Assembly (NCBI GenBank): GCA_021018995.1 | Contig: CM037587.1 | Coordinates: forward strand, 11,910,866-11,974,865 | DNA from: Chloranthus sessilifolius | Lineage: Eukaryota > Streptophyta > Magnoliopsida > Chloranthales > Chloranthaceae | Direction: 5' to 3' | DNA length: 64,000 nt | Part shown: positions 14,198 to 44,107 of the stretch, piece by piece | Layout of the letters: the number at the start of each line of letters is the position of its first letter | Position numbering within the stretch: the first letter of the stretch is position 1 | Position numbers and translations under genes: made by a program | Notes under the pieces: generated by a model | Told to the model about the DNA's origin: nothing | What the model saw: the letters and a program-made list of their open reading frames with translations, nothing else | Databases searched by the model: none

Positions 14198-14416
14198 TGT
14201 GTTTGATTTCATGTTGACTCACTTTTAGATAACTCTTCAGTTACCCATGTATGCACGTTGTAACCCACATTCCCACAACATTAGTCACCAGAATGTTGGT
14301 TACTGTATTATAAAAAAAATGACAACTCTAGCGCTTTTGTATTAACTAAGAAAAATAAAATAAAGTTTATCTTTTTATATTTTCATTCGGTCATCTGCTT
14401 TTTATCTCTTTCTTCA
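14198..14416 (+). repeat. copia 5' LTR
   Basis: Matches the 3' LTR from AGATAACTC (14227) to the terminal TCTTTCTTCA (14416), including TTACCCATGTATGCA, the TATTATAAAAAAAA TATA region and GCGCTTTTGTATTAA. The beginning is rearranged, so the start is approximate. Confidence 0.75.
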
Positions 14417-15380: not shown

Positions 15381-17076
15381 ACCGCAATGACCCGCCTCAA
15401 CCGCCCCTTCTTCCGACACCAAATCAAGCTTTTGTTGCTACCCAACACAATCCTCCTTATTCCAACTGGTATATTGATAATGGGGCTTCAAACCACATCA
15501 CATAAGATCTGTCACAACTTTCACTTCACATCAGATCTATTTGCAATACAGGTTTTGGTATTATATATACTTCCAATAATAAATTTATTCTCAACAATGT
15601 CTTACATGTGCCTCATATGTCCCCCAATTTACTATCTGTGCACAAATTTGCAAAGGATAATAACTATGTACTTTTCTTTGATTCTTCTGGGTTTGTTAGG
15701 ACAAAGAAATGATGATGATTCTTACCAAGGGCAGTAGCCAACATCGACTTTATCCCATCAGATCTTCTTCATCATCTCCGAACTCCACTACAACCTTCAT
15801 TTCCTCTCGGTAGCCCCGCAACAATATGGCATAATCGGCTCAGTCATCCCTCATTAAATACCCTTCAATTTTTAGCTTCTAAATTTCATCTTTCTCTTTC
15901 TAGTAAATTTCCTTTATATTGTGAGCATTGTAACATTGAAAAAGCCTATAAACTTTCCTTTGCTTTATCTTCATCTCAAACTCAAGCACCTTTACAACTT
16001 ATCCATGCAGATGTTTGAGGTCCATTCCCCTTAACTTCTTTTCGAGGATATAAATATTATGTTATCTACATTGATAATTTTTCTCGCTTTTGTTGGTTAT
16101 ATCCTCTCATACACAAATCAAATGTTTATCGTTCTTTTGTTCATTTTAAAAACTTAGTTGAAAATCAATTTTCTCGCCAAATAAAAGTTTTTCGCAGTGA
16201 CGATGGGGGAGAATTTGTTAATAAACAAATGCTGCATCTGTGTACAACTAATGACATTATTCATAAAAAATCGTGCCCACATACACCCGAGCAAAATGGA
16301 GTTGCAGAGAGGAAACACTGACATCTCATAGAAACCGCTATTACTCTAATGCACACCGCATCTATGCCTCTCACATATGGGTTGGATGCCCTGTGTACTA
16401 TCATTTTCCTCATCAACCAATTGCCCAGCCCTACCATTGGCAACAAAACTCCTTATGCAAAACTTTATAATGCTGTCCCAGATATTTCAATTCTAAGGAC
16501 ATTTGGCTGCTACTGTTATCCTTGGTTGACACCCTACTCTGTACATAAATTAAAACCCCGGTCAATACAATGTTGCTTTCTTAGTTACTCCTCTGAACAC
16601 AAAGGCTATTGGTGCCTTGATATTAATACAGGTAAAGTATACATTTCGAGACATGTTAGATTCCTTAAAAATTCCTTTCCTTTTAAGACCTGTACCCACA
16701 TTCTTCAGGCTCCACAAATTGTCCCAATGCTATAAATATGTCACTTACCCCTACACCCATTCACCCAACCTCTCCACTAGTCACTTCCAATCTTACCCAT
16801 TTACCAAATTCTCACCCCACATCACCTACTACCTTTAACCCTTATACTACACCGATTCACATCATTCCACCAACTTCCCCACAAACTACTAATCAATTAC
16901 CTCCTATCCCCATCCTGTCTTCTATTAGTACATTCACTGCTCAAAACTCTCATTCTACCCTTACAACCAACAATTCCCATCCAATGCAAACCCGATCCAA
17001 ACAAGTGGTTTAAGAAGAAACATATCCTTTCTCTTCATACCCGATCCTCTAAACTTTTCGCATGGCGATCCGTCAT
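15381..17076 (+). pseudogene. copia protease and integrase
   Basis: Protease: WYIDNGASNHIT near 15463-15500, where the usual DSG/DTG active site reads DNG. Integrase: the pre-integrase segment IWHNRLSHPSLNTLQFL near 15830-15870 and the zinc-binding C-x2-C pair CEHCN near 15920. The rve core includes the Asp of HADV (15995-16020), DDGGEF with the second Asp near 16200, and the catalytic Glu in PEQNGVAERKH near 16290-16320. Stops (TGA after HADV, TGA after ERKH, TAA near 16735) break it. The linker ending HPMQTRSK (about 16978-17000) leads to the reverse transcriptase, whose first residues WRSV end at the Tat insertion. Confidence 0.85.
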
Positions 17077-17339
17077 TGTAGATACCCCTATTTTGCCTTC
17101 TCGAAGTATACAAACTTGTTCGGTTAACCTTTGACCTTTTAACCCTCGATATGGGACCATGCAATGGTACATGATTGAACACAGGCTGAAATAATAGTTC
17201 TGTGGCTCAGATCCCAGCGTAGGGAGACTATATACTAAAACAATAGTATATAGCTATAACGCAGATTGAAACAATAGTCTTACATTTCAATCTAGAGACT
17301 AGACCTGGACAACCCCGAATTCCATGGTAGAAACCCCGT

Positions 17340-17680
17340 ACGCAATTCGATCATGCGTAAAACCACAAGTGTGCGATCAGTCCCCCTTTCAGACCAAACT
17401 TCCTTTCCCAGACAATCTCGAGACTCGATTACGCCCGACCTAGTCTTACCACCCATGACCCTTAAGTTTCCTTGATTATGTGCTCCAGGTAAAGCACTTA
17501 ATCAGATTGAGCGCCTGATAAAGTGCGCGCAATTAGCCCTAATTTTATTAGGACTAGAAAACTCGCTGAGCAAGTTAGCCGATCACTCACTGAGTCGGTG
17601 ACCGACTCAAAGCGATTAAGCGCCAGAATCCAAGTGCGCAATTCAATTAAACGCCCGAAAACAGGCGCGTAATTGGAAGA
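17340..17680 (+). promoter_or_regulatory. GCGC-type palindrome array upstream of the LTR TATA box
   Basis: Repeated half-sites such as AAAGCACTTAATCAGATTG, AGCGCCTGATAAAGTGCGCG, GATTAAGCGCC, GGTGACCGACTC and ACGCCCGAAAACAGGCGCG are spaced 20-60 bp apart and stop a few bases before TATAAAAG. The position suggests an enhancer or promoter element. The same motifs recur in the 3' LTR (39250-39580) and in the internal region (33905-34235, 36470-36835). Confidence 0.6.
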
Positions 17681-17685
17681 AAACC

Positions 17686-17693
17686 TATAAAAG
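17686..17693 (+). promoter_or_regulatory. TATA box of the Tat 5' LTR
   Basis: TATAAAAG at the downstream edge of the palindrome array. The matching site in the 3' LTR is missing through a ~28-bp deletion. Confidence 0.7.
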
Positions 17694-19371
17694 CTTATTT
17701 TCGAAACACAACGAGGAGGTTGGATTTTGTTTGGACTTTTTTTTGGAATTGGAGCGACTAAGAGTTCCGAGAATAGGATGAATGGAGAAGAGCACCAAGA
17801 CCATGATTTCGAGATTCAAACTCTCGAACTTCCGATGATTCTTCTCCACTGCCTCGACCTTCGATAAGAATTTAGTTTTGTTTTAGGTTTAGGATTTCCC
17901 CCTTAGATTAATTCTTAATTTTTTTTTTCGTCTTAGATCGTAGCACCTTTTTTAGACAGAAATCTCTATGTCTGATCCCAATCCTCAGAGTCTGGGACCA
18001 ATCCTTGATCTAACAGCCCGAGACACCGACCCCTAAGACTAAATTCCACTCTAATATTAGAATTTAGAGTCGTATCATTAATCTCTGGTTATAACTCTCA
18101 CAGTTAAGAACCAGTCCTTAATCATACGGTCTGATTTTCTGATTTCGAACCCGAATTCAGTCCTAGAATTTTAGATCTTAATTTCAAGTTAATATTTTTA
18201 CCACTTCCAATCATTAGTTTAGTTGTTTAATTCTATTTCCTTAATTTAATTCATCTCCATAATCTTGAAGATAATTTAAAAAATCTAAAAAATATTACTT
18301 CATAACCCAAAATTTAATTTTTTTCTCTTTAATCTCAGTCACCCGATTTTCCCAAGGGAGCTTACAGAGAGTACTCGGGAACGATGCCAATCCTCCTTAG
18401 CATAATGGGCCCGAACCCCCCCTTTTTTTAGAATTTTAGGATTAATTAATTGCTTTGATTAGTTCGTAACTAGATATAATTGATTATTTGCATTAATAGG
18501 GCCTTGATATAATTATTAGAATGTTAAAATCAAAATTTCTTTTCCCTTAGTTTAGTTAATTAATTGTTTCAAATCAGAATTTTAGGAAGTTTAGTTTATG
18601 CATGATTAGTTATATTTTTTTCATAATTCATTCATCGATCATTAGAGTCGTAGAAAAAATCAGTCTTTTTATTTCCATTGATACTTAAATAGAAAATTAA
18701 ACTTATTGCTTTAATTAGGCTCGTAGAAAAATCAGTCTTTTTATTTCAATTTGAATTACAATAGAATTATTACAATTGCTTCGAATAGAATTGGAGTATA
18801 ATATGTATACTTATTTTAGTTAGAATCCCAATGCAATTAGCATGATTGATTTAATCAGAACATTATTGGAACTGATACATATGCACTCCTAGTATAGTAG
18901 GAGAGTGAAACTGATTGGACTTTTAGTAATACTAGAACCTTGATACTAATTGGACTCTTGATAGCATTAGAACACTAAAATAACTCACTTTAATAAGCCC
19001 ATATAACCAGAGAATAACAATAATAGAATTGAGAAATTTAAACTGATCGGAACTATAATTACAAAGGGAAATAAGAGGAGAATTAAACTAACTAAACTTA
19101 AGAGAAACACTGCTGCTGACGTTTGTGGGCGGACGATTCAGTATAGAAGTAACCCACACCCGCTTCACAGCATGATCACTGACGTGTTGCAGCGTCGTTA
19201 AATATCTGTAGCTGGCGATCGCAATCAAACTAGGAACCTTCCTAGAAAATCTCCCTTTTATTCATTTTTATTATTTCAGACACCGCATTGCTAGAGTCCA
19301 CCTGGACAGAATTGGAGCCACTGATTCAACGGGAATCGAGAGGAATCCAGAAAAAGTGCGCACCAACAGAC

Positions 19372-19477: not shown

Positions 19478-21200
19478 ATGAGTCTTCGTCAAAGACTTGA
19501 GATGTCTGGCATACGTAGAGTAAGTCTAGGAGACCCTCCATTGTGGGGACTTCATGACAACCCCGCATACGAGGAAGAACCGCCTTATACTTTTAGCCCA
19601 TGACAATATGAGGTTAATATGGCTGGTGAACAAGAGAATCCCTTCTCTACACCGCGCACCAGTAGTAATCATAGAGGGGGAAATGGTAGCTCTGGATAAA
19701 ACCTCACTACTCAACAAATCGTAGAACTTAGCATATAAAGAATACAAAGAGGAGGTGATGACTCCGAAGAGTTGCTTCGAGGATTGGCCGCTGCATACGA
19801 AACCATTAGGGGATAATAAAATTTGGAAGAGCAAGAGTGATAAGAAAGACCACCGCCTACCCCGAGTACGGTGTTAGCTCGCGCTGCGTCATTGAGGCAG
19901 AATGCTCATACATCCTTTAACGACGACGCACTGAATAGAGCTAGCTTGCAGCTCACGCCAAAGGACAACACCATTAAGGTTGAAGATCTCCCTAAAATGC
20001 TTGACGAGTACATGGCCAAGAGGGAACACCCTGGTCATTCATTCAGGTTCGATAAATTTTACAGGGATGTCGAATTTAACTTTCTTATAGGATTCAAACC
20101 GCCAAAATTCACCAAATATAATGGCACGGGAAATCCGAACCATCACTTGGCACTCTTCTGCAATGATTGTCGGCCCATATGCGGCAACCAAGGACTTCTC
20201 ATTCACTACTTCCAATGTTCATTAGAAGGGGAAGCTCTAGACTGGTTTGCGGGACTCCCACTCTATAAGATCGAAACCTTTGACGATTTAGTCGGTTAGT
20301 TCTTAGACCAATACAAACACTTGATCCAAGAGACAGTTAGCCTCAGCGACCTGATGGCCGCAAAGCAAGGACCTGATGAAGAATTTGTTGACTTCATCGC
20401 TCGATGGAGAAAACCTGCCGAGAGGACCGGCACTTCGATGAAAGAGAAAGACGCGGTCGACATTATTATCGATAATACTAGGGAACCATTGAAGAGCGCG
20501 CTTGTCATTAGCGATTGCCCCGACTTCATTGCACTCCATTCCCGGGTATCCCGACTAGCGCGACACATTAAAGGCGGAGACCTCGCCTTATCCATCGTTA
20601 CATCCAAGGTAGGCTCCTTTAGTGAATCAAAGGCAATAAATAATAAGAAAGCCTTAGGAACTGAATAGGTTAACACCGTTGTTAACTAAGGAAAAAATTC
20701 AAATAATGGCAGCTTCAAACCGCGAAACTTCAGACAAAACCAAAACCAACAATGGTATACCAACCAGAATCAGAACGCTAATCAGTCCAGATATGCAAAC
20801 CAGCACCAAGGCCAAAACCAGGGTCAAGGCCTGTACCAAAACAGAAACCAGTACCCTAATACCTATCAAAACCAAAATGCAGCACATAATCGATCGGCTC
20901 ACGTGCTGAATTATAATAACGTCTCCCCACCATAAAACTTTAATCCGGCTAGAGGCCCCTACCGACCAAGGCGGGAACATTATCCCCTTTACTCGATATG
21001 ATCTCCAATGTCTTTCGAGTTCTTAACACTCAGAATCTCCTTCGATTCCCACCAGAAAAACCTCGACCATGGCCTGTGAATTTAGAATATAGCAAATACT
21101 GTGCATGCCATCGATATGCTGGACACAGCTTAGAGGACTATTGGGTCCTCCGAGATGTAATCTACGACATGAACGATCGAAATCAAATCGACTAGGAAGC
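19478..21200 (+). pseudogene. Tat gag
   Basis: Starts at ATG 19478 (MSLRQRLEMSG) and holds the retrotransposon-gag core FKPPKFTKYNGTGNPNHHL and EGEALDWFAGLPL (20090-20260), continuing past an in-frame TAG (20297) through FLDQYKHLIQETVSLSDL to about 20668. A glutamine/asparagine-rich stretch follows (20700-20920, in another frame). It ends with a zinc-knuckle-like segment, KYCACHRYAGHSLEDYW (about 21090-21140), in which the last Cys is lost. Several stops are CAG to TAG. Confidence 0.8.
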
Positions 21201-21201
21201 G

Positions 21202-24200
21202 TTGAAGAACCCTAACCCCAATGAGAACCAACCCCAACAAAACTTAGGGATCATAAACAACCCCATGCCTAATCACAACCAGGGGGCATCGGCTCAGGTC
21301 ACTATTGTGGATCTCTCTAGTCAACCCTCTTTCCAACCCTCTATTTTAATCACTCGCATCCAACCCTCCGACGTTCCTGCTACCCCTGTGAGAATCTTTT
21401 CACTTCCACATCCTTCGACCTTGATCACTCGCATTACCCTGCCAAACCCGCCTCCTTATCCGAAATTCACTCAGATATGGGTCTATTCCTTTAAGGCCAG
21501 AAAATCATTCCTCCATCGTCACCCATCGAAACCTCCAACCCCTCCAAATCTTGAACCTATGCCATCACCACCTCCTTTGTCTGACTCTGAACCCGAGTAT
21601 GGCGATCACGTTCTTCAAACTGCCACCCAAATTGCCACATGGGTAGAAAGAGTCACTCGAAAGACTCCAAACTTAGAAAACGGAGGGAAAGCTAAGTGTT
21701 CACAAAACGTAGAAGAAAGTGAGTGAGAAGAACATTCTGACCTCATGAGGCACTAGTCTCTACTTTCTTAGAAGAAGAGGATTACACGCAGTACCTCCCA
21801 CCTTGGAACGGCGCCGTGTAGGCCCACGCTTCGACTTCTGACTTTACTCGCTTCGCAAATACGTCAGCATCAAGCCACGCTAGGTTCAGTCAACAGCCGA
21901 CTTGCCTGATTCTTAAATCCGGAATCAATTATCCACCTCCTCCTTTCCCTCAAAATAGGGATTTTGCGAATGCGCTACAGTAAGATGGGAACGCAAGAGA
22001 AAGAGAGTTTAACTTGTCGCCCCCACCTCACATCATCCCTTCGCCAATTCCTGCATCTCAACTGCTCCAACCACCTGCACCTAAAGCTCATCGGCCAGGC
22101 AAAGAGATTACACTCGAGCCAGGGCAAGAATATAACCTTTTACGACACCTTCAAAAGATCCCACCTCAGATATCCATATTAGAGCTCATCAAGAAATCGC
22201 TTGATCATCATCAACTATTGATAAGGACAGTTGAGGGCACACAGGTAGACGAGGACACGACCTTAGATGAGCTTCATCAAATCACCTCAGTCATGGCGCA
22301 ACCTCCAGCACTCACGTTCACTGATGCAGACATGCCTAAGGAGTCACTCCGTGGGAGTGCTCCTATATATCTCACAGTCATCATTAGAGGATTCTCTGTA
22401 CCTCATGTGTTAGTGGATACTGGAGCAGGACTTAATATTTGCCCGCTCTCGACGTTAAAGATACTCAAGTACACGGAACAAGATGTAAGGCCCTCGGCCT
22501 TATCACTCATAGCTTATGATGGCTCGCGTCGCTTTATTAAAGGGACTATTAAACTCTAAGTTTGTCTCAGACCTGTGACAAAGGACATTACCTTCCATGT
22601 TTCTGATTCCGCTAGCACATCTCATCTTAGGAAGAAAGTTGTTAGAATTAATGAAGGCCATCGCGTCTACATATCATCAATGTGTAAAGTTCCCATACAA
22701 GGACTCCATCATCCGTATATACGCCGATGCACCTCTCTAGGAAATGGATACTAATTATGCGACAAGCATTCCGACGGCCCATGATTCCGTATTAAATACG
22801 AGACACGTTCAAAAGACTCGAATCCCAGATGAGACAACCGTAGCAGAAGTCCGCCACCCGACCCATCCTAGTTCTCCCCTGACGTGTCGACAAGAGTTGA
22901 TGAGTAGAGAGGTTGGTCCAGACCTCGCAAAGATTTATGACATCAACCCCACCGCAACAAAAGGGTGAGATCTTATGTACCAACTTGGATACATTCCTCA
23001 CACCGGACTTGGTAAGAATAAGCAAGGTCGCGTAGGACCCGTCATCCCAATGAAAATATGCAAGCATATAGGGCTAGGTTACCAATCGGACGGCTCACAA
23101 GCCGACTTGTTCCCTACTTCACCAAAATGGTCTCTATATGACCACTTCGTCTATGGGGCCATTGAGAAAGCCAATGTACCTAAGCAAAAAGAGGTATCCT
23201 TCACTAAATCCCCAAAAGTGGAAATCGAACAAATGGCTAAAGCATTCGATGATTTGATGAACCTGAATGATGACCTTGATGAACCCTTTGAAGGAGTTAA
23301 ACCCTTGTTTGACCTCAAAGAGCCTACAGGAAAGGGAAGGGAGGAACCTCCTTAACCCGATCCACAATCAAAAGATTGGGAATCCACTGATGATGAGGAC
23401 TTCCACATAGCTACCTTGCAAGGAGATGAAGAGCATTTATACTCAATGTGGGAAGAAGATGATGCCTCATAAGCAGAATTTAACTCGTATAGCATCCGCC
23501 TCTGCCTTGGGCTTGGAGGATGGGAATGCCCGTTGGACTCATCTTGTATCTTTCACCCATATCAACCCCGTTGCGAGGCATGCACTCACATATTAAAGCA
23601 ATTCGCCAGTGGGATCCGACATTCTGCAATGACAGAAGTGAACGGCTCTAGCCCTGTAACGATGGAAGCAAGCAACAACTTACCGGCTCTGCTATTGACG
23701 CAAGGAGAAGAGAATTCTGACAACCAGTTGGCTGACCCAGGAGGAAATACCCACGTCACACTCTTAGGGTTTGAAGAGGAGTTTGAATCAGACTCTCCTT
23801 CATCCCCAGATGCACCGCAACTCCAAATATTTTGGAAATCGCTCGAGGAAGAGTGGCGACCTCCGCCAAGTGATGACGAGGACTACTGAATAGATCTCCC
23901 TGCACTCGAATTAGCAGAGCAAGCCAACCTAGGACTTAAGCCTTATCAGATCAAGAAAGTGAATTCGATATTATCATCGATTCTAAAGGATGGGAATGCC
24001 CTTAGGAATCTCCCTATGTTTTTCACCATTACCAGCCTCGTTGCCGAGCATGCGTGCTCATCCCAATGTATTATGAAGATTAGGAGAGAGAGAGAGAGCT
24101 CCCCCTAGGGATCCTTTAGGAGACCCTTGGTGGGAAGAGCAACCATATCATACCTTCGAGGATGATAGTTCATTTGATTACGATCTCCAGATCTTCTTTG

Positions 24201-24850
24201 AGGAAAAGGTAATCAACGTGATAGAGGGAATCCAAACTACGATACTCCTGTCACCCATGTCATTTATTCAGAAGCTCTCATTAGGTGAGGACTAAAAAAA
24301 AAACAAAAATGCCAAATTCAGAACAAGTCCACATCTCTCGAACGGCTCCAACAGTCGTCTCGCTCACTCAATTAGAGGAAGCAACTCTCCCAATGCCTCT
24401 TAAGGCAACCGACCCTGTACCATATTTATTATCAAAAATTAAAAGAATAGAAAAAATAGAAAATCCTAAAAATTTGAAAACATAAAATCCAAAAAAATAA
24501 AAAAATCTCAAAAAAGAAAGGGAACCATTCGTCCCGAATCCATCGTCCGATCAACAAGGAGACTTTTCTCCTGAGACTACTATCCTATCTTTCGCACTAG
24601 GACGTAAAGCATCCCGACTAAACAACAAGCCGGTGGTCATACCCGATGAGATACTTCATGACCTTGAGAGAAGAATCAATAGCCTTGACCTTTACCTTAC
24701 CAAAGATCTCTCGATCATAAAATGCACCGATGAAGGGTTGCTTCTCGCAAAATCGAATCCCTAGTATAGTAATTTTGCAGTATACGAGCTTACCGATGAT
24801 GAGGAAGGAACACCAGTCACCGAAGGGGCGTAGGACTTCCAATGGGTTAT
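21202..24850 (+). pseudogene. Tat protease, G-patch-like segment and linkers
   Basis: After a proline-rich linker (21202-22000), a retropepsin-type protease is seen at about 22290-22560 with VLVDTGAGLNICPL (DTGA at 22416-22427). A glycine-rich segment at 22975-23095 (YQLGYIPHTGLGKNKQGRVG ... GLGY) resembles a G-patch, a nucleic-acid-linked module found at this position in Tat polyproteins. The 23518-24060 part contains a direct repeat with a ~470-bp offset (GGATGGGAATGCCC...GCATGC). The region has no single open frame. Confidence 0.7.
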
Positions 24851-26440
24851 CAAGCATTTCGACGAGCAAACTCAAGCTGTCGTGGAACTGACAGAAGAAG
24901 TTAACTTTGACACAGAAGAGAAACCCAAAAAATTACTAATTAGCGCAACGCTCAACTCCAAAGAACGCCAAGAAATTATGCAACTCTTGTAAGAACACCT
25001 TGACTCTTTCGCGTGGTTCTATGAAGATATGCCCGGTTTAAACCCCAGCTTGGTAGAACATCGGCTCGTGTTGGAGCCTGATGCGAAACCCGTAAAGCAG
25101 AAACTCCGTAGGATGCACCCACAAACAGCTCTGCAAGTCAAAGAGGAAGTCGACAAGGTACACAAAGCCAAATTCATCCGTGTCGTCCTCTACCCTAAAT
25201 GGGTCACCAACATAGTACCTGTCGCTAAGAAGGATGGCAGAGTACGGGTTTGCATTGAATTTCGAAACCTCAGCCAGGCATGCCCAAAAGATGGCTTCCC
25301 ACTTCCGCACATTGACACTCTCGTTGACAATACTGCCGGACATGAGATGCTATCCTTCATGGAAAATTTCTCTGGATATAATCAAATCAAATTAGCTGAG
25401 TCCGATCAAGAGAAGACTTCTTTCACCACACCCTAAGGAACTTACTATTACGTCGTTATGCCTTTTGGGCTCAAGAACGCAGGAGCTACATATCGATGCG
25501 CTATGATGGCCATTTTTTACGACATGATGCATAAATGTGTAGAAGTCTACGTCGATGATATATTAGTGAAGTCCCAAACACGGGCAGGACATGTTGAAGC
25601 ACTCCGACTGGTACTATAAAGGGCTAAGAAATATCAGCTGAAAATGAACCCAAAGAAATGTGTCTTTGGAGTCACTTCCGAAAAGTTACTCGATTTTATA
25701 GTTAGCAAGCGAAGGATTGAAGTCAACCTTGCTAAAGTTAGAGCCATCCTTGAGATGCCACCTCCCTGTGATATCAAAGAATTACGAGGCCTGATAGGAA
25801 GATTGCAATTCATCAGGAGATTTATCTCCCAACATTCAGACATATGCGATCCTTTCTACAGACTACTTAAAGGAGGAACCGAGTATAAATGGGATGACCA
25901 ATGCCAGCAAGCCTTCGATAACATTAAAAGTTACCTCCTTAACCCACCAATACTATAGCCCCCAGTTCCTGAAAGGCCCCTAATCCTTTACCTCTCAGCA
26001 AATGACAAAGCAATGGGAGTAATTCTGGGACAATATGAAGAAGACGGTAAGAGAGAGAAGGCTATCTACTACCTTAGTAGGATGATGGTCAAATACGAAC
26101 GGAAATACACTCTCATAGAGAAGACCTGCCTCACATTGGTATGGGCTTCAACCAAATTACGACACTACTTCAGAGCACATAAGATACTAGTACTAGCCCG
26201 AATGGACCCTCTGAAGTACGTATTCGAAAAGCTCGTAACATCAGGGAAGATTGCTCGCTGTCATATGCTATTACAAGAGTTTGATATTACTTACATCACG
26301 TAGAAATCGGTCAAAGGGCAAGCAATTGCTGATTACCTCACAGATCTCCCACTCCCAAGTGATGAACCCATACATGCAGACTTCCCCGATGAAGACCTAC
26401 TTACAGTCCACAACGAGGAGCCCGATAAGATTTCGTGCCT
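24851..26440 (+). pseudogene. Tat reverse transcriptase and RNase H
   Basis: Reverse-transcriptase landmarks: LLISATLNSKERQEIMQLL upstream, then KPVKQKLRRMHP, WVTNIVPVAKKDGRVRVCIEFRNL (Glu where most copies have Asp), PFGLKNAGATY, and the catalytic YVDD at 25548-25559. The thumb and connection follow (ELRGLIGRLQFIRRFI). The ordinary RNase H starts near 25980 with LYLSANDKAMGVILGQ and continues through HYFRAHKILVL. In-frame stops are at about 25434, 25617, 25957 and 26302. Confidence 0.88.
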
Positions 26441-26850
26441 TATTTTGACGGCGCTCTAAATTATAAAGGAAAAGGCATCGGGATAGTCCTCCTAAGCTCG
26501 GAAGGAGTTGTCATACCTAAAGCTTTTCAATTAGACTTCCCTATCACTAATAACGTTACCGAATACGAAGCGTTTATAGTTGGACTATGAGCAACATTAC
26601 AATTAGGCGTTAAATAGTTGAAAACCATTGGTGATTCTAAGCTAGTAATCTCACAAGTCATAGGGGAATGGAAAACTAAGGAAAGGAGACTAGTGACATA
26701 TTTAGAAACCGCTCAATATCTAGTGAACAAATTTGAAAGAATCTCTTTTACGCATATCCCTAAATTAGAAAACAAGCTTGCATACTCCCTAGCTACACTA
26801 GCCTCAGTCATTCAGATACCCCTTGGACAAAGTACCAAAGCCTTCTTTAT
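26440..26850 (+). pseudogene. Tat second (archaeal-type) RNase H
   Basis: YFDGALNYKGKGIGIVLLS (Asp at 26446-26448), VTEYEAFIVGL with Glu, and KTIGDSKLVISQV with the second Asp near 26630. This duplicated RNase H is a hallmark of the Tat lineage. A frame change at its start and stops (TGA 26587, TAG 26614) break it. Confidence 0.85.
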
Positions 26851-27054
26851 AGAAAAATTAACAGTACCTGCCCACGAGGTGACATGGACCGTCAAGAGAG
26901 AATTATCGATCCTTCCCATGAGCATGACACCAAAGGAAGCAATTACTCTGAAAAAGCACGACAAGTCAGGAGCCGAAGTTGCTACGTTCAGATTTGAAAG
27001 ATCACCAACCGACGACAGACAGCCGTGGTATTTCAACATTTGAAACTTTCTCAA

Positions 27055-28281
27055 ACACCAGCACATTCCTCCCTATGCCACAAAGATCGAACGAAAGACT
27101 ATGAGGAACCAATGCGCCAGATTCTGCATACTTGGCGAAACATTATACAAAGAAGCCTTCACTAAAGGAGTACTTCTATGATGCGTTACGACCGTCGAAG
27201 GACAATACATCATCCGAGAAGCACACACCAGTGCTTGCGGTGCCCACGCCGGTAGAGAAAGACTCGCCGATCAAATTGCACGACGAGGCTACTTCTGACA
27301 GACAATGATAAGAGATTGCCACCTCTACGTCTAATTCTGCAAGCAATGCCAATAACATGCCGCACTCATCAAAGCTCCATCAGTTACATTGAACACTATG
27401 ACCTCGCCATGGTTGTTCTCAATGTGGGCCTTCGATGTCGTCGGACCTTTCACAGACACAGTTGGGAACACTCACAAGCACGCGTTTATACTTACAACAA
27501 CCGAATACTATACCAAATGGGTAGAAGCCGAATCATACGTCAGGATCACTACTTCTACCCTCATAAGGTTTATTATGCAGAATATCATCACCAGATTAGA
27601 GTACCCAGAATATTTGTCACCGACAACGGACCGCAGTTCATTGCGGAGAAGACAAAGAAGTTATGCAAGAAATTCGGCATTGATCTACACAACTCCTCAC
27701 TGTTCTACCCTCAAGGAAATAGGCAAGTAGAAGCCACCAACAAAATGTAGATTCAAATTCTAAAACGTATAGTAGAAACAAGCAATGGAGCCTACTGGCT
27801 TGAACAACTACCAGAAACACTCTGGGCCTATCGGACTTCTATTCGTACGACCATTGGCCAAACTCCCTACCTCCTTACCTACGGGATGGAGGCCGTCTTA
27901 CCATATGAGATACAAGTACTATCCTTACGAATTCAACTCGATGATGAGCTATCCTTAGACGAGAGGAGGATTGCCCTACTTATGCAGCTAGAGCAACTCG
28001 ATGAAACACGTCTAAGGTCAACTGATCACGCTCAGGTATATCAGAGGAGAGTGGCCAGGGCTTACGATAAGAAAGTCCATGAATGAACCTTCAATATCGG
28101 AGAATTAGTCTTGAAGAAAATCATGCCCTCTAAGCACACCCATCCGAAAGGAAAACTGAAGCCAAACTGGGAAGGCCCTTACGTCATAAACCCTGGGAAT
28201 GCATATAAACTAGCGAACCAAGATGGGGGAGAACTCCCTAGCCCTTGGAATGCCATGTACCTTAGAAAATACTACCCTTAG
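27055..28281 (+). pseudogene. Tat integrase
   Basis: The zinc-binding part (HTSACGAHAGRERL, then C-x2-C of FCKQCQ near 27330) is followed by the rve core: WAFDVVGPF with the first Asp (27425-27450), VTDNGPQF with the second Asp (27616-27640), and GNRQVEATNK with the Glu (27720). The C-terminal part ends YLRKYYP with TAG at 28279-28281. Frame changes occur between 27400 and 27600, with several stops. It lacks a chromodomain, in contrast to the element at 45285. Confidence 0.87.
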
Positions 28282-30003
28282 CCCTGTGATCATCACATCC
28301 CGTGGTTAAATACTTATAGCCATCACCCCCGTAGTTGTCACGACCCAATCATTAGTCGTACGCTTTCAATCCCTAGAATATCCTTGAGACCTCCTGTTTA
28401 TCGCCCACCTTCTTATTCGGGTAATCTGACCAAAGGACTAGTAACCTACCTAATCTCTTTCAAAAGTATAAGTAACACCTAATCCTTATTCCTTCCCTCA
28501 CCATTAGAGGATACATTAGAGCAAAAAAAATAAAAATTCTAGGTTCAATCAAAACTCATTATTCTTGCGCTAGCAGGATGCTTTCAAAATATATCTACCT
28601 ATCAAAAGTTGAGTGAGAGCATTACGACGAATGAACAAGTCAATGAGCTCAAGGAAGCATAAGCAGGCCATGAGGACATCCCTGGTAGCTTCACCAGAAG
28701 TGATAAGCAAACTACGAGGGCCCCCTTGATGTCCCTATACTAATAGATGTTGTCGTAAGGTGGCGGGAGGAGGACAAACTCCTGCTAACCATAGAATGTG
28801 AGATTTTGATGGTACTAAAACATGACGGAGAGCTCAATCATGGCACCGCCCCTCGTTCCCCAAGGAGAGGACTATTACTCATCTCTTTTACAGAGCGTTA
28901 ATTACAAACTACTCCCCACATCATTGAGCCTTATCCTTTTTCTACTTTTTTTATATTTTGGACGATCAGTTGGAAGCCTTGCAGGATACTCCAAGGAATG
29001 AAACCAAAAACTGATGAATGATGACTGATATAATCACCCGCTGTACCTACCATACTCCTCCTAATATCCATGGGATAGGATGACCACCACCACCCCAAAG
29101 ATAGACTCCGTATGCAACTGACCTAATTAAAAGACCTCTCACTCCCCCAGTTTGACGACAACATTGATGAACATTTTCTTCAAAACTAACGCAATGCTCA
29201 TCTAAAGCCAGAAAAGCTCCATTGCATCTACACATTGGGGCATTTTTTTTGGATCGGAAGGAGAATCATATCAAAATCACTGACTCGTCTACCAAAAGAT
29301 AAAGAATGTCGAAGCTACCGTGCAAAGAAGGTTGCCGAAGACACTATACTGCTGATACTACCACGCTCCTATGCTGGGGCATTTTGTTTTATTTTTTATT
29401 TTTACTTTTATTTCTTGTTGAGCTAGTTATTTGCTTTCCCTATTGTATTACCTTTTCAAAAAAAAAAGAGAGCATATATCTACATTTATTACTAAGCTCC
29501 GGTCTGAGATACTTACCCCCTTGACAACTAGCAAGGGGGAGAACAAAGATTACTAATAGCGTTACCTTTACATGAGCAGATACAAAGCAACCTTCAACCA
29601 CCATTGGGCTAGCTCGCAAAGCATCCAAGTCCCGATGATGATTGACGGCACTAGGAGCAAAAGTAAAAGTAGACGCAAGAGGTAACTAAAAGAAAAGAAG
29701 CTGATCAGGTATGCCTAAATCCAAAATCTCAATATATATGTCAAATTTTACTTTCTTGTTATTCTTTACAATCGTCACCTGGGGCATCCCCCCCTGTATG
29801 TACAATGCGCACTCACAATGGGCAAAACATACACATGCACACACCTACTCCCTACGCTGCCGCTGGGACGGTCGAGCACCACTGTCCCCAGTATCATCAG
29901 CTCGAAGGTCCGTAGACTGGTCCTCTGAAAATATGATCTCGGCGCCTGGAGTCACTAGAACCTCTAGACGGCGCGACCCCACTATAGAGCCCTCCTTGCT
30001 CGC
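28282..30003 (+). other. Tat post-pol spacer
   Basis: No convincing gene. It contains a T-rich run near 29387-29415 and an A-tract near 29457. It forms the 3' flank of the antisense gene that ends at 30004. Confidence 0.5.
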
Positions 30004-33000
30004 TTAACTAACAATCCGCCTTGGCCGAGAATGAGGAGGATGCCCACTGAGAACCCCACGCGTAATAGAATCCTCGCGAGTATCACTCCTGACATGATCA
30101 CATGTTGTGTGGCGAGACTACCCGGACGAAGGCCCCGTAGCCCTCGACTCTGATCCCTCAAGCTGGCTAGCTGATCTACGCGTCCCTCGCTCCCTCGCCA
30201 GATGATACTGCAGCCGATCCATAGACGCCTACATCTCTACTCGCGTGGACTGGAGCTTCGCCTCCAATGCCTCGACCTGAGTCTTTTGCACAACCATCAT
30301 CTCAACAAATAAGTCGTCATGACTCTATGTCTCCCCAAGGACTCGCCTCGCCTCGAGAGTGGCACGCACCCGTGCTGCCTCTAAATGCGCCTCCTCAAGC
30401 TGACGAACCTGTGTAGCCACCCCAAGTCAAAAGAAAAATCAATATATAAACATAAGAAGCTTTAAAAAAAAAATAGTTTTTTTACCAGGATTGATCTCTT
30501 CCCCAGAAGGCTCTCGACCGTCGCAGCAGTCACAGGATCAACTGTCGGCACGGAAGGAGTGGCAAACATAGGCGGCTGCAACAAGAACAAACAAATATAT
30601 CAGATAACTCTACGATGACTAATAAACTATAAATACATCAACTAAAACATACCCGACTAGGAATAGGAACGGACCCCTGAGGGGGAGCCTCAGGAGCAGA
30701 ATCCGGAACAGCCTACACGAACAACCAAGCAAACCAACACAAAATATGTCAGAGACAAATAGGACAAAATAACCTAAATAGAATTGCACCCAAAAATTAG
30801 AAATTATACCTAACTCTCTGGGCGTAAAGAGGTAGCAGTCGCCTCCCTCATCCAAAGGTCCTCAGCAACCTGACGCTGAAGCACCGACGCATGTTAGTAA
30901 ACTATTAAGTCAACACAATAATAACACCTAACAAACTAGCACAATAACACAAGTAAACTGAAGAGTGAGGGAACCTACCCAATGCTCCAGCTCAGACTGA
31001 AGATGAGCCATCGCTGGATCCTCCCGACTGGAGGAGGCCACTGAAGAGGGATCAAATGCCCGAGCAGAAGCCTCCGCAGCGGAAAGCTCTGCCGTCTGCA
31101 TACACCGCCAACATTCCAACATTAATAAGGATCCCCGAACCATCAACAGTTAATAAATCTAATCCAAAATACCCACCAATTGCTCAATCTCAGAGCGAAG
31201 GCTAGCCGCCACCATGTGATCGGCCTGCTGCTGACCGCGATAGATCTCCAATAGAGCTGCCTGACGAGCAACCTCAGACTCTCTCTCAGACTGCCCATAA
31301 TAAAACGAGACGACCATGTCAAAAACATCACCAGAATAAGCCAACATAATATGCGAACGAATTAAAAAACTAATAAACTAACTCACCAGTAATCATCGGG
31401 TCTCTGCTAGTCGAGCCCCTAACTCATCCTCTGTCGCCCTGGCCCGAGCGACTGAATTGGTCAAAGAGTGCAAAATCTTCTCATCAGGACGAGGATCATG
31501 CCCCATCTACTCCATCGCCCTATGGAGAGCATCCAGTGCCCCCGTACACTCACCGTCAGATGGCCCTCCTCCAATGAGGCCAATCTCTCCCTCAATGCCG
31601 ATGCTGACTTTGGCCCATCGATGGCGAAAGAACCACTGCCATGAAAGGGACACGTGAAGAGGTGCCCACCACCCAATGTGCTGAACCACCTCCTATACTC
31701 TCGTACATCCGCCTCGTCACGTGCCCCCATGACCCTTGTTCCCCCAGCTCTAAAATCGGCTATCTAGAGTGCCATCCGCTCCGCAAAATTCTAACCTGGA
31801 GGGCCGATCATCCTCTTCGCCACTCCGTGGCTAACCTCTGGAGGGACTCCTTGAGCAAGCCCCAGCTGCCGTACCGCTCAAGAGGTGTGGATCCTCTCCA
31901 CCCTCTCAAAACAATGGACCCATATGTCCATATCGAAGAAGGGCCGACCAGATTCAATCACCGCCTCACCCGCATCCTCCTCATCATCGTAGGGCCTCTA
32001 GATTACCTATCCAAATGAACAAGCTGACCCATTAACAAAGCCTAAGAATCCCAAAACAAAACAAAGCCAGACGAAAACATGACGATATATACCTGCCCCG
32101 CGTGCATATCCTCGAAGAGGCCCCGTGTGGTCTGAAGATCCGAAGATCAACGGCGACCCCTCAACGCCTCCCTCCACTCGTGCATCCGAGGGAACATGAA
32201 CTTAACCCCCACTGGAACCCCCGGATGAAGAAAAGCGAAATGATCATATGCCCAAAACTGAAAAAAAGAAATAGCGACAACACATAAAAAAAAGGATCGT
32301 TAAAAAAAAAAAAACTATGAACGAAATTAATGAAACTAAAGTTATCATGATACCAATTAACCAAAACTTACCTGGAGGAATGGAAGGAAACCTCCGATCG
32401 ACGCGATGCCCTGTCCTCGATGGTAGAGCTGCTCGTAGAAATGCGCCAATGCGGCCGCACCCCACGCATAAGTAGGGACCTGATCCAAGTCCCCGAGAAC
32501 CATCAAAACCAACCCAGTGATGCATCCCCGAGTTGAAGAAGAGAAAAGAACTGTGCCCAAGAAGTGCATTAGAAACACTCGGAGTACCACATCAGAGCCA
32601 ACGGCTCGACCACGGGCTCCCACCATCGCCTTTGCACAGCTCATAAGGCGCCCTCACCTTTGAATGATGCCTCAGAGGGGTAAGATTGCTGGCAAACATA
32701 TTGAAGAACCAAGTGACCCGAACTACCCCTGTCCCTGATCCACTCGACCTATAAGGGACTCCCAAGATCTCCTCACACACCTCTAAATACTGTCCCTCCA
32801 TCCACCCCGTGATCGGTTTGCCCTCAAAATGAAGACCGGTGATGCGAACCCAGTCCTTCGGGGTCGACAACATCATACAAACCAGAAAGAGATCACCGCG
32901 ACCAGGCCTCGATTAACCTGAAAGGGCTCTAACCCTTGAATCGTCCCAAAAGCAAAAGACACCAGCCGCTCCCACTGAAACTCTGGCAAGGCACGGTACC

Positions 33001-33710
33001 AGGCATGAGACTCACCCCATGCCGAGTTGATAGCCACCTGTGAGGCTCCTATCGACCATAATGACCAACACGAAAAAGAATGACAATAACAATAAGACTA
33101 ACACGCACTTATGACGAAAGATAAATGAATTTAGGAGTTGAAAATGAATAAGACATGTCTCGAACGCTATGACAACTTACAACAAGCACACAAAACATGA
33201 TGAGAATATCCAGCATAAACATGACTTATCTCTAGATGCGAGCATGATGCATGAGCGAGCACACAACAAATAATCAATGCAGGTTCGACATAAATTAGAA
33301 GGGTTTACAGATCCTAATAAGCCACTGTCATAATCTGAATGCCTAGGAAACTGAAGGAACTCTTGCTTACGAGGCCCTACCTGACCTCTAGCAAAGAAAT
33401 CCTCCAGCGGATAGTGCTTGCGATCCCGAGGCTCCGTGCCTGACTGTTCCTCACCCTCAGCTCCCTCATCCTCAGCTCTCTCACCCTCAACTCTCTCGCC
33501 CTCCTCCTCGACTACCCCCAGTTCAATCCCGGGTACCTCCTCCCTGGCCACCATCTAGTCACCCTTGGGGACCTCTACGATCATCCCCCTGATATCCCCC
33601 TCCATGGCGACAGTGCCAGTCTGCGCCTCGAAAGTTTCACCCACATCCCCCATCAACATCCTCTCCAACTCAGAAATAGTGACCAACGTGACATCACCCT
33701 CACCCTCCAT
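30004..33710 (-). pseudogene. antisense 10-exon gene: PMD core plus coiled-coil tail (~875 aa before decay)
   Basis: Exons in coding order are 33710-33381, 33037-32372, 32257-32093, 32006-31387, 31290-31177, 31095-30979, 30869-30810, 30712-30653, 30575-30486 and 30408-30004. All nine introns (77-343 bp) are GT-AG and fall between codons. Exon 1 is acidic (repeats of EGE/EDE). Exons 2-4 encode the plant mobile domain: STPKDWVRITGLHFEGKPITG, the hallmark YAWGAAALAHFYEQL near 32460, and AVRQLGLAQGVPPE then DEADVREYRRWF. Exons 5-10 are Glu/Ala/Arg-rich with heptad-like spacing and end at TAA 30004-30006. PMD proteins are nuclear factors and are also known from transposons. In-frame stops are mostly CAG-to-TAG or CGA-to-TGA. 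Frameshifts are near 31570 (one base lost), 32640 and 32900 (these two cancel). The introns survive because the element's genomic RNA is of the other strand. Confidence 0.8.
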
Positions 33711-33881
33711 ACCAGAACAAAGAACTCAAAAAACTGAAGAGGATGGAAGAAACGACACCTCAAATGGACGACCGGATTACTAGATATCACGAAAACATGA
33801 AAAATCGAGTACAAGGAAACCAGGAAATTAGATAATCAAAGACTAAAATGGATAACGCGATGAAAAATAAAAAGTTTGAAC

Positions 33882-33889
33882 TATTTATA
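33882..33889 (-). promoter_or_regulatory. TATA box of the antisense PMD gene
   Basis: On the minus strand TATAAATA lies about 170 bp upstream of the ATG at 33710, directly next to a GCGC-type palindrome array on its upstream side. Confidence 0.65.
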
Positions 33890-38918: not shown

Positions 38919-41249
38919 TGTAGACACTCCCATTTTGCCTTCTTGGAGTATACAAATTTATTCGATCAACCTTTGACTCTTTTAACCCTCGATATGGGAC
39001 CATGCAATGGTACATGGCTGAACACAGGCTGAAATAATAGTTATGTGGCTCAGATCCCAGCGTAGGGAGACTATATAATGAAATAATAGTATATAGCCGA
39101 AATGCAGACTGAAATAATAGTCTTGCATTTCAATCTAGAGACCAGACCCGGACAACCGCAAATTCTGTGCTAGAAATCCCGCGCGTAATTCCTTCACGCG
39201 TAAAACTACAAGTGCGCGATCAGTCCCCCTTTCAGACCAAACTTCCTTTCCCAGACCATCTCGAGACTCGATTACGCGCTTGAATCCAGGCGTATGATCA
39301 GATTGAGTGCCTCACCACCGACGCGCAATTGGCCTACGCCCGACCTAATCTTACCACCCTTGACCCTTAAGTTTCCTCGATTATGCGCTCCAGGTAAAGC
39401 GCTTAATCAGATTGAGCGCTCGACAAAGTGCGCGCAATTAGCCCTAATTTTGTTAGGACTAGGAAACTCGCTGAGCAAGTCAGCCGGTCACTCACTGAGT
39501 CGGTGACCGACTCAAAGTGATTAAGCGCCGAAATCCAGGTGCGTAATTCAATTAAACGCCCGAAAACAGGTGTGTAATTAAAAGAAACACAACGTGGAGG
39601 CTGGATTTTGTTTGGACTTTTTTTTGGAATTCGAGTGATTAAGAGTTTCGAGAATAGGACAAATGGAGAAGAGCACCAAAACCATGATTTCGAGATTCAA
39701 ACTCTCGAACTTCTGATGATTCTTCTCCACAGCCCTGACCTTCGGTAAGAATTTAATTTTATTTTAGGTTTAGGATTTCCCCCTTAGATTAATTCTTAAT
39801 TTTATTTTTCGTCTTAGACCGTAGCACCCTTTTCGGATCGAAATCTCAATGTCTGATCCCAATCCTCAGAGTCCGGGACCAGTTCTTGATCTGACAGCCT
39901 GATACACCGACCCCTAAGACTAAATTCCAGTCTAAAATCACAATTTACAGTCCTATCATTAATCTCTAGTTCTAACTCTCACAGTTCAGATCCAATCCTT
40001 AATCATACGACCTGATTTTCTGATTTCGGACCAGAATTCAGTCAAAGAATTTTAGATCTTAATTTCAAGTTAATATTTTTACCACTTCTAATCATTAGTT
40101 TAGTTGTTTCATTCTATGTCCTTCATTTAATTCATCTCCATAATCCTGAAAACAATTTGAAAAATCTAAAAAATATTACTTCATAACCCAAAATTCAATT
40201 TTTTTCTCTTTAATCTTAGCCACTCGATTTGCCCAAGGGAGCTTACGGAGGGTACTCGGGAACGAGGCCAATCCTCCTTACCATAACGGGCCCGAACCCT
40301 CTTTTTTTTAGAATTTTAGGATTAATTAATTGCTTTGATTAGTTCGTAAGTAGATATAATTGATTATTTGCATTAATGGGGCCTTGATATAATTATTAGA
40401 ATGTTTAAATCAAAATTTCTTTTCCCTTAGTTTAGTTAATTAATTATTTCAAATCAGAATTTTAGGAAGTTCAGTTTATGCATGATTAGTTATATTTTTT
40501 TCATAATTCATTTATCGATCATTAGAGTCGTAGAAAAAATCAGTCTTTTTATTTCCATTAATACTTAAATAGAAAATTAAACTTATTGCTTTAATTAGGC
40601 TCGTAGAAAAATCAGTCTTTTTATTTCAATTAGAATTACAATAGAATTATTACAATTGCTTCGAATAGAATTGTAGTACAATATGTATACTTATTTTAGT
40701 TAGAATCCCAATGCAATTGGCATGATTGATTTAATCAGAACATTATTGGAATTGATACATATGCACTCCTAGTATCAGTAGGAGAGTGAAACTGATTGAA
40801 CTTTTAGTAATACTAGAACCTTGATACTAATTGGACTCTTGATAGCATTAGAACACTAAAATAACTCACCTTAATAAGCCCATATAACCAGAGAATAACA
40901 ATAATAGAATTGGGAAATCTTAACTGATCGGAACTATAATTACAAAGGGAAATAAGAGGAGAATTAAACTAACTAAACTTAAGAGATACACTGTTGCTGA
41001 CGTTCGTAGGTGGATGATTCAGTATAGAAGTAACCCACACCCACATCACAGCATGATCACTGACGTGTTGCAGCGTCGTTAAATATCTGCAGCTGGCGAT
41101 CGCAATCAAACTAGGAACCTTCCTAGAAAATCCCCCTTTTATTCATTTTTATTATTTCAGACACCGCATCGCTAGAGTCCACTTGGACAGAATTGGAGCT
41201 ACTGATTCAACGGGAATCGAGACGAACCCAGAAAAAGCGCGCACCAACA
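38919..41249 (+). repeat. Tat 3' LTR (2331 bp)
   Basis: Colinear with the 5' LTR over its length, with scattered substitutions and indels. It keeps the GCGC array but has lost about 28 bp carrying the TATA box between short GAAA repeats (near 39580). Confidence 0.92.
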
Positions 41250-41374
41250 GTCATGTCTGATGAATTCAATGCCCTCCTTCAACACGACACGTAGACACTA
41301 GTCTTAATGTCTCACAATAGAAAAATTATTGGGTGCAAATGGATCTTTAAAATCAAAACCCTTGCAGATGGTAC

Positions 41375-42594: not shown

Positions 42595-43874
42595 GGTACC
42601 ATAGCGCGGTATAGAGCCCGACTCGTCGCCAAAGGCTATGATCAAGACTATGGCCTTGATTACACAGAAACATTTAGCCCTGTTGCCAAACATCCAACAA
42701 TTCGTGTTGTAATTTCAATGGCAATTCATTACAATTGGACAGTTAGACAATTAGATGTGTCTAATGCTTTTCTCCATGGATATTTAGATGATGACATTTA
42801 CATGTTTCAACCACCTGGATTTGAGGATCCCTCCTTTTCGAAGCACATTTGCAAGCTTTGCAAAGACATTTACGACTAGAAACAAGCTCCATGTGCTTGG
42901 TTTTCAATGTTGTCAAAATTTTTAGTTGCTCAAGGCTTCCAATCTAGTTCTGCCGATAGCTCCTTATTCGTGCAACACAATGCATGTCGCATTACCGTTG
43001 TATGTGTATGTGGATGATATTTTGGTCATTGGTAGCGACAACACATACATCACAGAATTTGTGCACACTCTTGGTCAGCGATTTTGTATCAAAGATTTAG
43101 GTCTTCTCAACTATTTTCTCGGCGTTGAAGTTACAAAAATTGTAACATCAGTTAACCTTATGGAAACCAAATATGCTCATGAAATCCTAGCTTGTGCCTC
43201 CATGACTGATTGCGAGCCATACAAAAACCTACTCTCCTCAAAACCATCCACCTACCCGAATGGAGACATAGAATTCTCTGATGTCACCTTGTATCACAGC
43301 TTAGTTGGGGCTCTATAGTCCCTCACGATTACTCGCCCGGATCTCTCCTTTGCGGTCAACAAAGTGTGTCAACATATGCATAAGCCACTTAATAAACATT
43401 TTTGTGAGGTCAAACGGATTCTACGGTTTATCAAAGGTACAATCAACCATGGCTTAACCTTCACACCTGGTTCTTTGGATATTCAAGCCTACTCAGATGC
43501 TGATTGGGCTAGTGACATTATTGATCGACGGTCTTCCACTAGATTACACTGTGCATTGGCCCATACTGCAACTGAGGTGTTATGGCTAAAACAACTACTT
43601 CAGGATCTCTACATTCCTAAATGATCGAAGCCAATCATCTAGTGTGACAACATCCCTGCAATAGCTTTGGCCTCTAATCCCGTATTTCACGCCTGCACCA
43701 AGCATATTGAGGTTGATTGTCACTTCATCCGCGAAAAGTTCATCAACAATGAGCTTCAAGTCTTCCACATCTCATCTGTCGATCAGATTGCTGATATATT
43801 CACCAAACCCCTCTCATCTCCTTGGTTTGCTTATCTCCAAGACAAGCTGATGATAAAAGAACGCCAATCATCTT

Positions 43875-43883: not shown

Positions 43884-44107
43884 TGATAGGGCTCCACACC
43901 GTATCATTTCCAACCTCTAGATAACTCTTTAGTTACCCATGTATGCATGCTGTAAACCACATTCCCATGACATCAGTCTCGAGAATGTTTGTTACAGTAT
44001 TATAAAAAAAAGAGGACTCTAGCCCTTTTGTATTAATTGAGAAAAATAAAATAAAAATTATCTTTCTATTTTGTCATTCTATCATCTTCTTTTTATCTCT
44101 TTCTTCA
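43884..44107 (+). repeat. copia 3' LTR (224 bp)
   Basis: TGATAGGGCTCC ... TCTTTCTTCA, bounded on the left by the polypurine tract. Colinear with 14227-14416. Confidence 0.85.

Follow-up and report, generated by a model that had tools for sequence, protein, structure and literature searches.

Does the segment between pol and the 3′ LTR of a Tat-lineage retrotransposon in Chloranthus sessilifolius carry, on the strand opposite to pol, an intron-bearing gene for a plant mobile domain (PMD) protein, and has selection acted on that gene? The locus lies in a window of 64 kb (G000:C4:11910866-11974865), the whole stretch of DNA that was analysed, and copies were searched for on the same 2.17-Gb assembly. 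The window contains a single 24-kb Tat-lineage Ty3/gypsy element with TG...CA ends and GTCAT duplicated on both sides, whose features, with protein domains called by Pfam, are as follows:

17077-19368, plus strand: 5′ LTR, TGTAGA...CCAACA, preceded by the target-site duplication (TSD) GTCAT at 17072-17076
20200-27700, plus strand: gag-pol remnants in three frames
~20.2k, plus strand: GAG
22957-23355, plus strand: G-patch (PF01585), just above cut-off, ahead of RT
~25.2-25.7k, plus strand: RT
~25.9-26.3k, plus strand: RH
~26.45-26.8k, plus strand: RVT_3, a second RNase H-like domain, read as aRH
~27.2k, plus strand: INT zinc binding (Integrase_H2C2), above cut-off
~27.6k, plus strand: INT core, under the curated cut-off
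38919-41249, plus strand: 3′ LTR, followed by the TSD GTCAT at 41250-41254

GAG, RT, RH and RVT_3 likewise score above their cut-offs. As its domains fall in three frames, the gag-pol polyprotein is broken. The assignment to the Tat lineage follows from domain order rather than from a tree: LTRs with a 5-bp TSD are present, the domains follow one another as RT-RH-INT, and there is a further RNase H. Ogre in the narrow sense is set apart by RT phylogeny, a tRNA-Arg PBS and an intron between GAG-PROT and RT. The RVT_3 domain, which we read as aRH, is flanked by RT_RNaseH and Integrase_H2C2 and so lies between RH and INT, the place where aRH is located in Ogre and Retand elements (PMC6317226). 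The G-patch is also frequent among the atypical domains of Gypsy elements (PMC9289625). The K2P distance between the LTRs is ~0.093 (2333 sites), a value slightly high because short flanks were included in the slice. At commonly used substitution rates, this distance would correspond to an age of roughly 4-7 million years. The element is flanked by repeats that are 87% identical (14226-14416 and 43918-44107) and by two ORFs (16349-16735 and 42926-43318). Judged by eye, these ORFs resemble Copia, and a Copia element seems to have been the target into which the Tat element inserted.

An earlier note, made from the sequence of the window, had placed a gene of ten exons and nine GT-AG introns on the opposite strand between the integrase and the 3′ LTR. 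Both its location and the positions of its introns were borne out, giving the following map:

33881-33889, minus strand: TATA box TATAAATAG, 179 nt 5′ of the ATG, exact in 21/26 copies
33381-33710, minus strand: exon 1, acidic, one stop here; ATG present in 26/28 copies
32372-33037, minus strand: exon 2, first part of the PMD, internal frame change, 666 nt here
32093-32257, minus strand: exon 3, PMD, one stop here
31387-32006, minus strand: exon 4, end of the PMD and the region after it, 620 nt here
31177-31290, minus strand: exon 5
30979-31095, minus strand: exon 6
30810-30869, minus strand: exon 7, one stop here, little constraint
30653-30712, minus strand: exon 8, proline-rich, little constraint
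30486-30575, minus strand: exon 9
29845-30408, minus strand: exon 10, including the family stop at 29847-29845, found in 24/24 copies

Exons and introns differ in base composition (exons GC 0.56; introns GC 0.35, T 0.46). A 15-nt tandem repeat at 33449-33503, within exon 1, codes for an acidic stretch. The gene had been called complete, which is wrong for the window copy, since in-frame stops are found in six exons (E1, E2, E3, E4, E7 and E10) and frame shifts within E2 and E4; this copy is a decayed, broken copy of an accessory gene. Its end, previously set at 30004, also had to be moved: the stop at 30006-30004 occurs in 3/23 copies, against all 24 for the stop 159 nt beyond it, and the gene therefore runs from 33710 to 29845, with an exon 10 of 561 nt plus the stop.

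These corrections rest on an alignment of 30 loci including the window. The genome was searched for such loci at the DNA level, scoring being confined to the best 39 of 5966 candidates, and more copies therefore exist. The other 29 copies are 78-87% identical, and most of the 30 have in common the ATG, the TATA box, the nine GT-AG introns and the exon frames. When alignment columns occupied in fewer than half of the copies are ignored, E1-E9 measure 327, 711, 165, 621, 114, 117, 60, 60 and 90 nt, and E10 measures 405 nt to the end given in the earlier note or 561 nt to the family end, both multiples of three. All ten exons are thus multiples of three, as expected from the phase-0 introns that had been described, whereas by the same column rule only 3-4 of the nine introns are. 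The proposal that the 620-nt exon (E4) had lost one base agrees with the family length of 621, while the 666 nt given for E2 hold for the window copy and not for the family, in which E2 has 711. Indels blur the frame in individual copies, with lengths that are multiples of three in 17/28 copies for E2 and 11/24 for E10, and no copy (0/30) has all of its assessed exons open. Donor GTs are kept in 246/264 cells and acceptor AGs in 236/262; conservation exceeds that of background dinucleotides for the donor (0.930 vs 0.790, p 0.0013), while for the acceptor the difference from other AGs is not significant (0.901 vs 0.866, p 0.26). As background for the TATA box, the most frequent 9-mer was determined at 540 positions upstream, and its frequency averages 0.33.

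Comparison of the copies at the codon level, which had been suggested as a check, revealed constraint. With the corrected exon 10, codons at which 50% or more of the copies carry a stop number 0/942 in frame versus 31 and 60 in the other frames, although three short exons (E5, E6 and E8) are additionally open in one wrong frame; stops shared in this way are present in 25/27 intron frames and in 3/3 frames of the 5′ upstream region. Variants shared by at least three copies (those in exactly two copies being left out of both counts) are distributed over the codon positions as 282/258/366, with an excess at the third (p 2e-5), while singletons show no significant bias (390/361/412, p 0.18); compared directly, the two sets of counts give p 0.068. 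The ratio of nonsynonymous plus stop to synonymous changes, (N+stop):S, is 571:399 among shared variants and 943:353 among singletons (p 5e-12), and 106:149 versus 731:246 when C>T and G>A are excluded. In frame, pairwise comparisons give a pN/pS of 0.477 (bootstrap 0.454-0.508). The other two frames give 0.719 and 0.839, and the intron frames 0.763, 0.577 and 0.740. Among the exons, values are lowest for E2-E5 (0.38-0.45), while E7 (0.77) and E8 (0.76) have the highest. Overall divergence among the aligned copies is not lower in exons than in introns, which is expected if decay dominates. This is the pattern of lineages that spread under selection and whose inserted copies then decayed neutrally, and the comparison of the 30 copies leads us to conclude that the gene was retained under selection during the spread of the family. 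With the architecture, the presence in 30 copies, the frame constraint and the decay of the sampled copies all demonstrated, we regard it as very probable that the locus belongs to a Tat-lineage family with an antisense accessory gene that is spliced and was under selection.

The codon-level pattern also bears on the best-surviving alternative, in which it is the antisense transcript that matters and not the protein, the transcript pairing with the sense RNA and feeding a pool of small RNAs by which the element is restrained or modulated. Such a role has precedents, as 175 PHAS loci with 21-nt phasiRNAs lie at PMD genes of the tea plant (PMC10673657) and regulation by antisense dsRNA is discussed for ORFs of this kind (PMC7264820). 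It requires no reading frame, however, yet frames and synonymous sites are constrained here, and small RNAs would be compatible with a simultaneous role of the protein; we consider this alternative unlikely.

The predicted protein of this gene is recognizable by its domain. The PMD core that had been read from the sequence was confirmed with the Pfam profile: a piece spliced together from the 3′ part of E2, E3 and the 5′ part of E4, with stops written as X, matches PF10536 with E 7.1e-25 (88.3 bits, cut-off 34.9). No Pfam family was found above its cut-off in two other pieces of E2 or in E1, E4 alone, E5, E6, E9 or E10. With E values of up to 1 allowed, Transposase_28 (PF04195) was absent from the scanned pieces, which came from E1-E6, E9 and E10. 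The coiled coil predicted across the six tail exons was not supported by a heptad test, which was clearly above shuffles nowhere (E4 +1.6 sd, E10 +0.7 sd, no signal in E5, E6 and E9); this test is crude, with few open copies (two for E4, one for E10) and with E7 and E8 too short for it.

Transcript evidence comes from P0001, a 299-residue product of a Trinity transcript in eukprot and the one sequence of 357 candidates to pass. P0001 is 55% identical over 86% of the query, scores 152.5 bits against the PMD and crosses both the E2/E3 joint (residues 198/199) and the E3/E4 joint (253/254) without intron sequence. It stops shortly past the latter, so that RNA coverage extends to two of the nine introns. 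P0001 thus supports splicing at introns 2 and 3, although it falls short of proof. A protein search with P0001 as the query returned only P0001 itself among 1923 candidates. An AlphaFold model of P0001 alone was set aside (mean pLDDT 37.5).

The gene is linked to the element in other copies as well. On the pol side of eight copies, five are colinear with the integrase region of the window to ~26.3k, the end of the fetched piece, two are partly colinear (to 27.8k and 28.3k) and one breaks at 29.9k. An LTR and exon 1 lie in order at 16/26 other places (best 27 of 15994 candidates scored). Since the scored places are the best matches, neither rate is that of all copies. That an antisense, intron-bearing PMD gene lies within the Tat element, as the earlier note had proposed, is borne out, and the gene is common to copies of the family.

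PMDs elsewhere in the genome were surveyed with the PMD profile (best 117 of 20277 candidates scored). Of 128 rows, 116 begin within the first 40 profile positions, and these end at 179-185 (70 rows), at 235-243 (23), at 293 or beyond (six) or elsewhere (17); the first two of these ranges coincide with two exon joints of the window. In three loci (L001, L002 and L003; 641-739 aa), PMD positions 1-347 are matched in one open frame with no stops, unlike the PMD of the element, which is interrupted by two introns; our guess is that these three are probably host genes of the MAIN/MAIL type. A GT-AG intron occupies the position of intron 2 in L005 and L007, which are ~24% and ~23% identical to P0001, while L006 has the acceptor at this position and lacks the donor GT. 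L007 together with L054 (G000:C9:87849278-87856823) is a Tat element whose RT is 56% identical to that of the window; its PMD lies in sense, directly downstream of the integrase, with the GT-AG intron at the place of intron 2. Given this sense copy, intron 2 appears to predate the divergence in orientation. The same copy rules out that all PMD copies of the genome are antisense. Weak RT matches lie ~5 kb upstream of L005 on the opposite strand, and weak RT/RH matches ~5 kb upstream of L006 on the same strand; no RT/RH match was found upstream of L008, and no pol match within 4 kb downstream of L005, L006 or L008. Near L005, a MULE transposase domain (L047) lies 3.5-7.5 kb away on the strand opposite to the PMD copy.

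A further alternative is that a host gene or another transposon was captured by insertion, introns included, and is passive cargo that the element does not use. PMDs are indeed also known from host genes and MULE elements (PMC5418596), and L001-L003 are probably host-type PMD genes in this very genome. Nevertheless, passive cargo would not account for a frame constrained across the family copies or for the retained TATA box and ATG, and L001-L003 hold in one open frame the domain that two introns divide in the element, leaving this explanation very improbable. That antisense sequence without coding function was read as a gene by chance is scarcely credible: the window copy alone, with its stops in six exons, its frame changes and its exons chosen by length and frame, might allow it, but the PMD match (E 7e-25), the shared stops (0/942 vs 31 and 60) and the agreement of the P0001 transcript product with two joints oppose it, refuting it for the PMD exons E2-E4 and excluding it least for E7 and E8.

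For the selected accessory gene, we propose the following mechanism. The family form would encode a PMD protein of ~942 codons, antisense between pol and the 3′ LTR and divided by nine phase-0 introns, with transcription probably starting from its own TATA promoter 179 nt 5′ of the ATG and with transcription and splicing presumably taking place in Chloranthus sessilifolius. The antisense direction would shield the introns, since it is the sense RNA that is reverse-transcribed, and introns of antisense orientation stay unspliced in it. The earlier note had likewise attributed the survival of the introns to the opposite polarity of the genomic RNA; the reasoning is sound and fits the data, although it falls short of proof, and the PMD of the related element L007+L054 lies in sense and still has a GT-AG intron at the place of intron 2. 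The protein may act in the nucleus on behalf of the element, and the selected gene is a candidate helper gene that may oppose host silencing. An anti-silencing role is plausible and has been proposed before for PMDs borne by transposable elements (PMC5418596, PMC8616336). As the likeliest single role we tentatively suggest interference with the host MAIN/MAIL1-PP7L silencing pathway through PMD mimicry; a different role in the regulation of the element has a substantial, if less than even, chance. No evidence for a packaging role was found in this analysis. On a broader and rather doubtful view, the lineage holds a multi-exon antisense nuclear gene with an internal promoter that has been turned against host PMD (MAIN/MAIL1-PP7L) silencing, and the antisense strand would be a refuge for spliced retroelement genes because an antisense mRNA is never reverse-transcribed, so that introns could accumulate and escape loss.

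Parts of this arrangement are familiar. The PMD is the commonest atypical domain of Gypsy elements (PMC9289625) and is reported in 57% of Ogre elements (Neumann 2019, PMC6317226), and the PMD-A1/A2 clades are described as exclusive to Gypsy elements (Ikeda 2017, PMC5418596); PMDs that MULEs have captured have been suggested to counteract silencing (PMC5418596), as have those of transposable elements (PMC8616336). Like the PMD-bearing Ogre/Tat elements, the window element has PF10536 in an extra gene (PMC6317226, PMC5418596), but the extra ORFs of Neumann are each uninterrupted and no shorter than 250 codons (PMC6317226), compared with ten exons here. Carriage by a Gypsy element matches the PMD-A clade, which is itself defined by a PMD tree; as Ikeda used Fgenesh, which predicts introns, split PMD genes may sit unremarked in that data set (PMC5418596). 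Antisense ORFs between pol and the 3′ LTR are likewise known (PMC7264820, PMC11963269). Among these, the TRP28 ORFs of Retand elements (Vicient 2025) match the gene in position but carry Transposase_28 and were called as ORFs, whereas the present gene has a PMD in ten exons (PMC11963269). Gene23 of the maize element Grande is antisense, lies in the 3′ internal region, is driven by a promoter of its own and encodes a nuclear protein (PMC7264820). Genes of this type are recognized by a demonstrated antisense promoter and transcript; the window family has a conserved TATA box. No PMD is named for gene23, the words "intron" and "mobile domain" being absent from the main text of the review (PMC7264820). 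The MAIN/MAIL proteins are PMD proteins as well and act with PP7L in the silencing of transposable elements (PMC7156037), but their genes are host genes, and the three full-length PMD genes found here have the domain in one open frame. Antisense accessory genes and Tat-borne PMDs are thus already known, while the split, ten-exon antisense PMD gene appears to be new: we found no report of one in the literature searched, which took in few subscription papers.

Split antisense genes escape ORF scans of retrotransposons. Two surveys were based on uninterrupted ORFs with a minimum length of 250 codons or 600 bp (PMC6317226, PMC11963269), and in such scans the selected gene of 942 codons described here would show up only as fragments. 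The origin of the host PMD silencing genes, by domestication or by capture, was left undecided in the account of Ikeda (PMC5418596); it can be tested by intron positions, intron 2 being common to L005 and L007. If split antisense genes are general, Tat elements have a larger coding load than current estimates allow.
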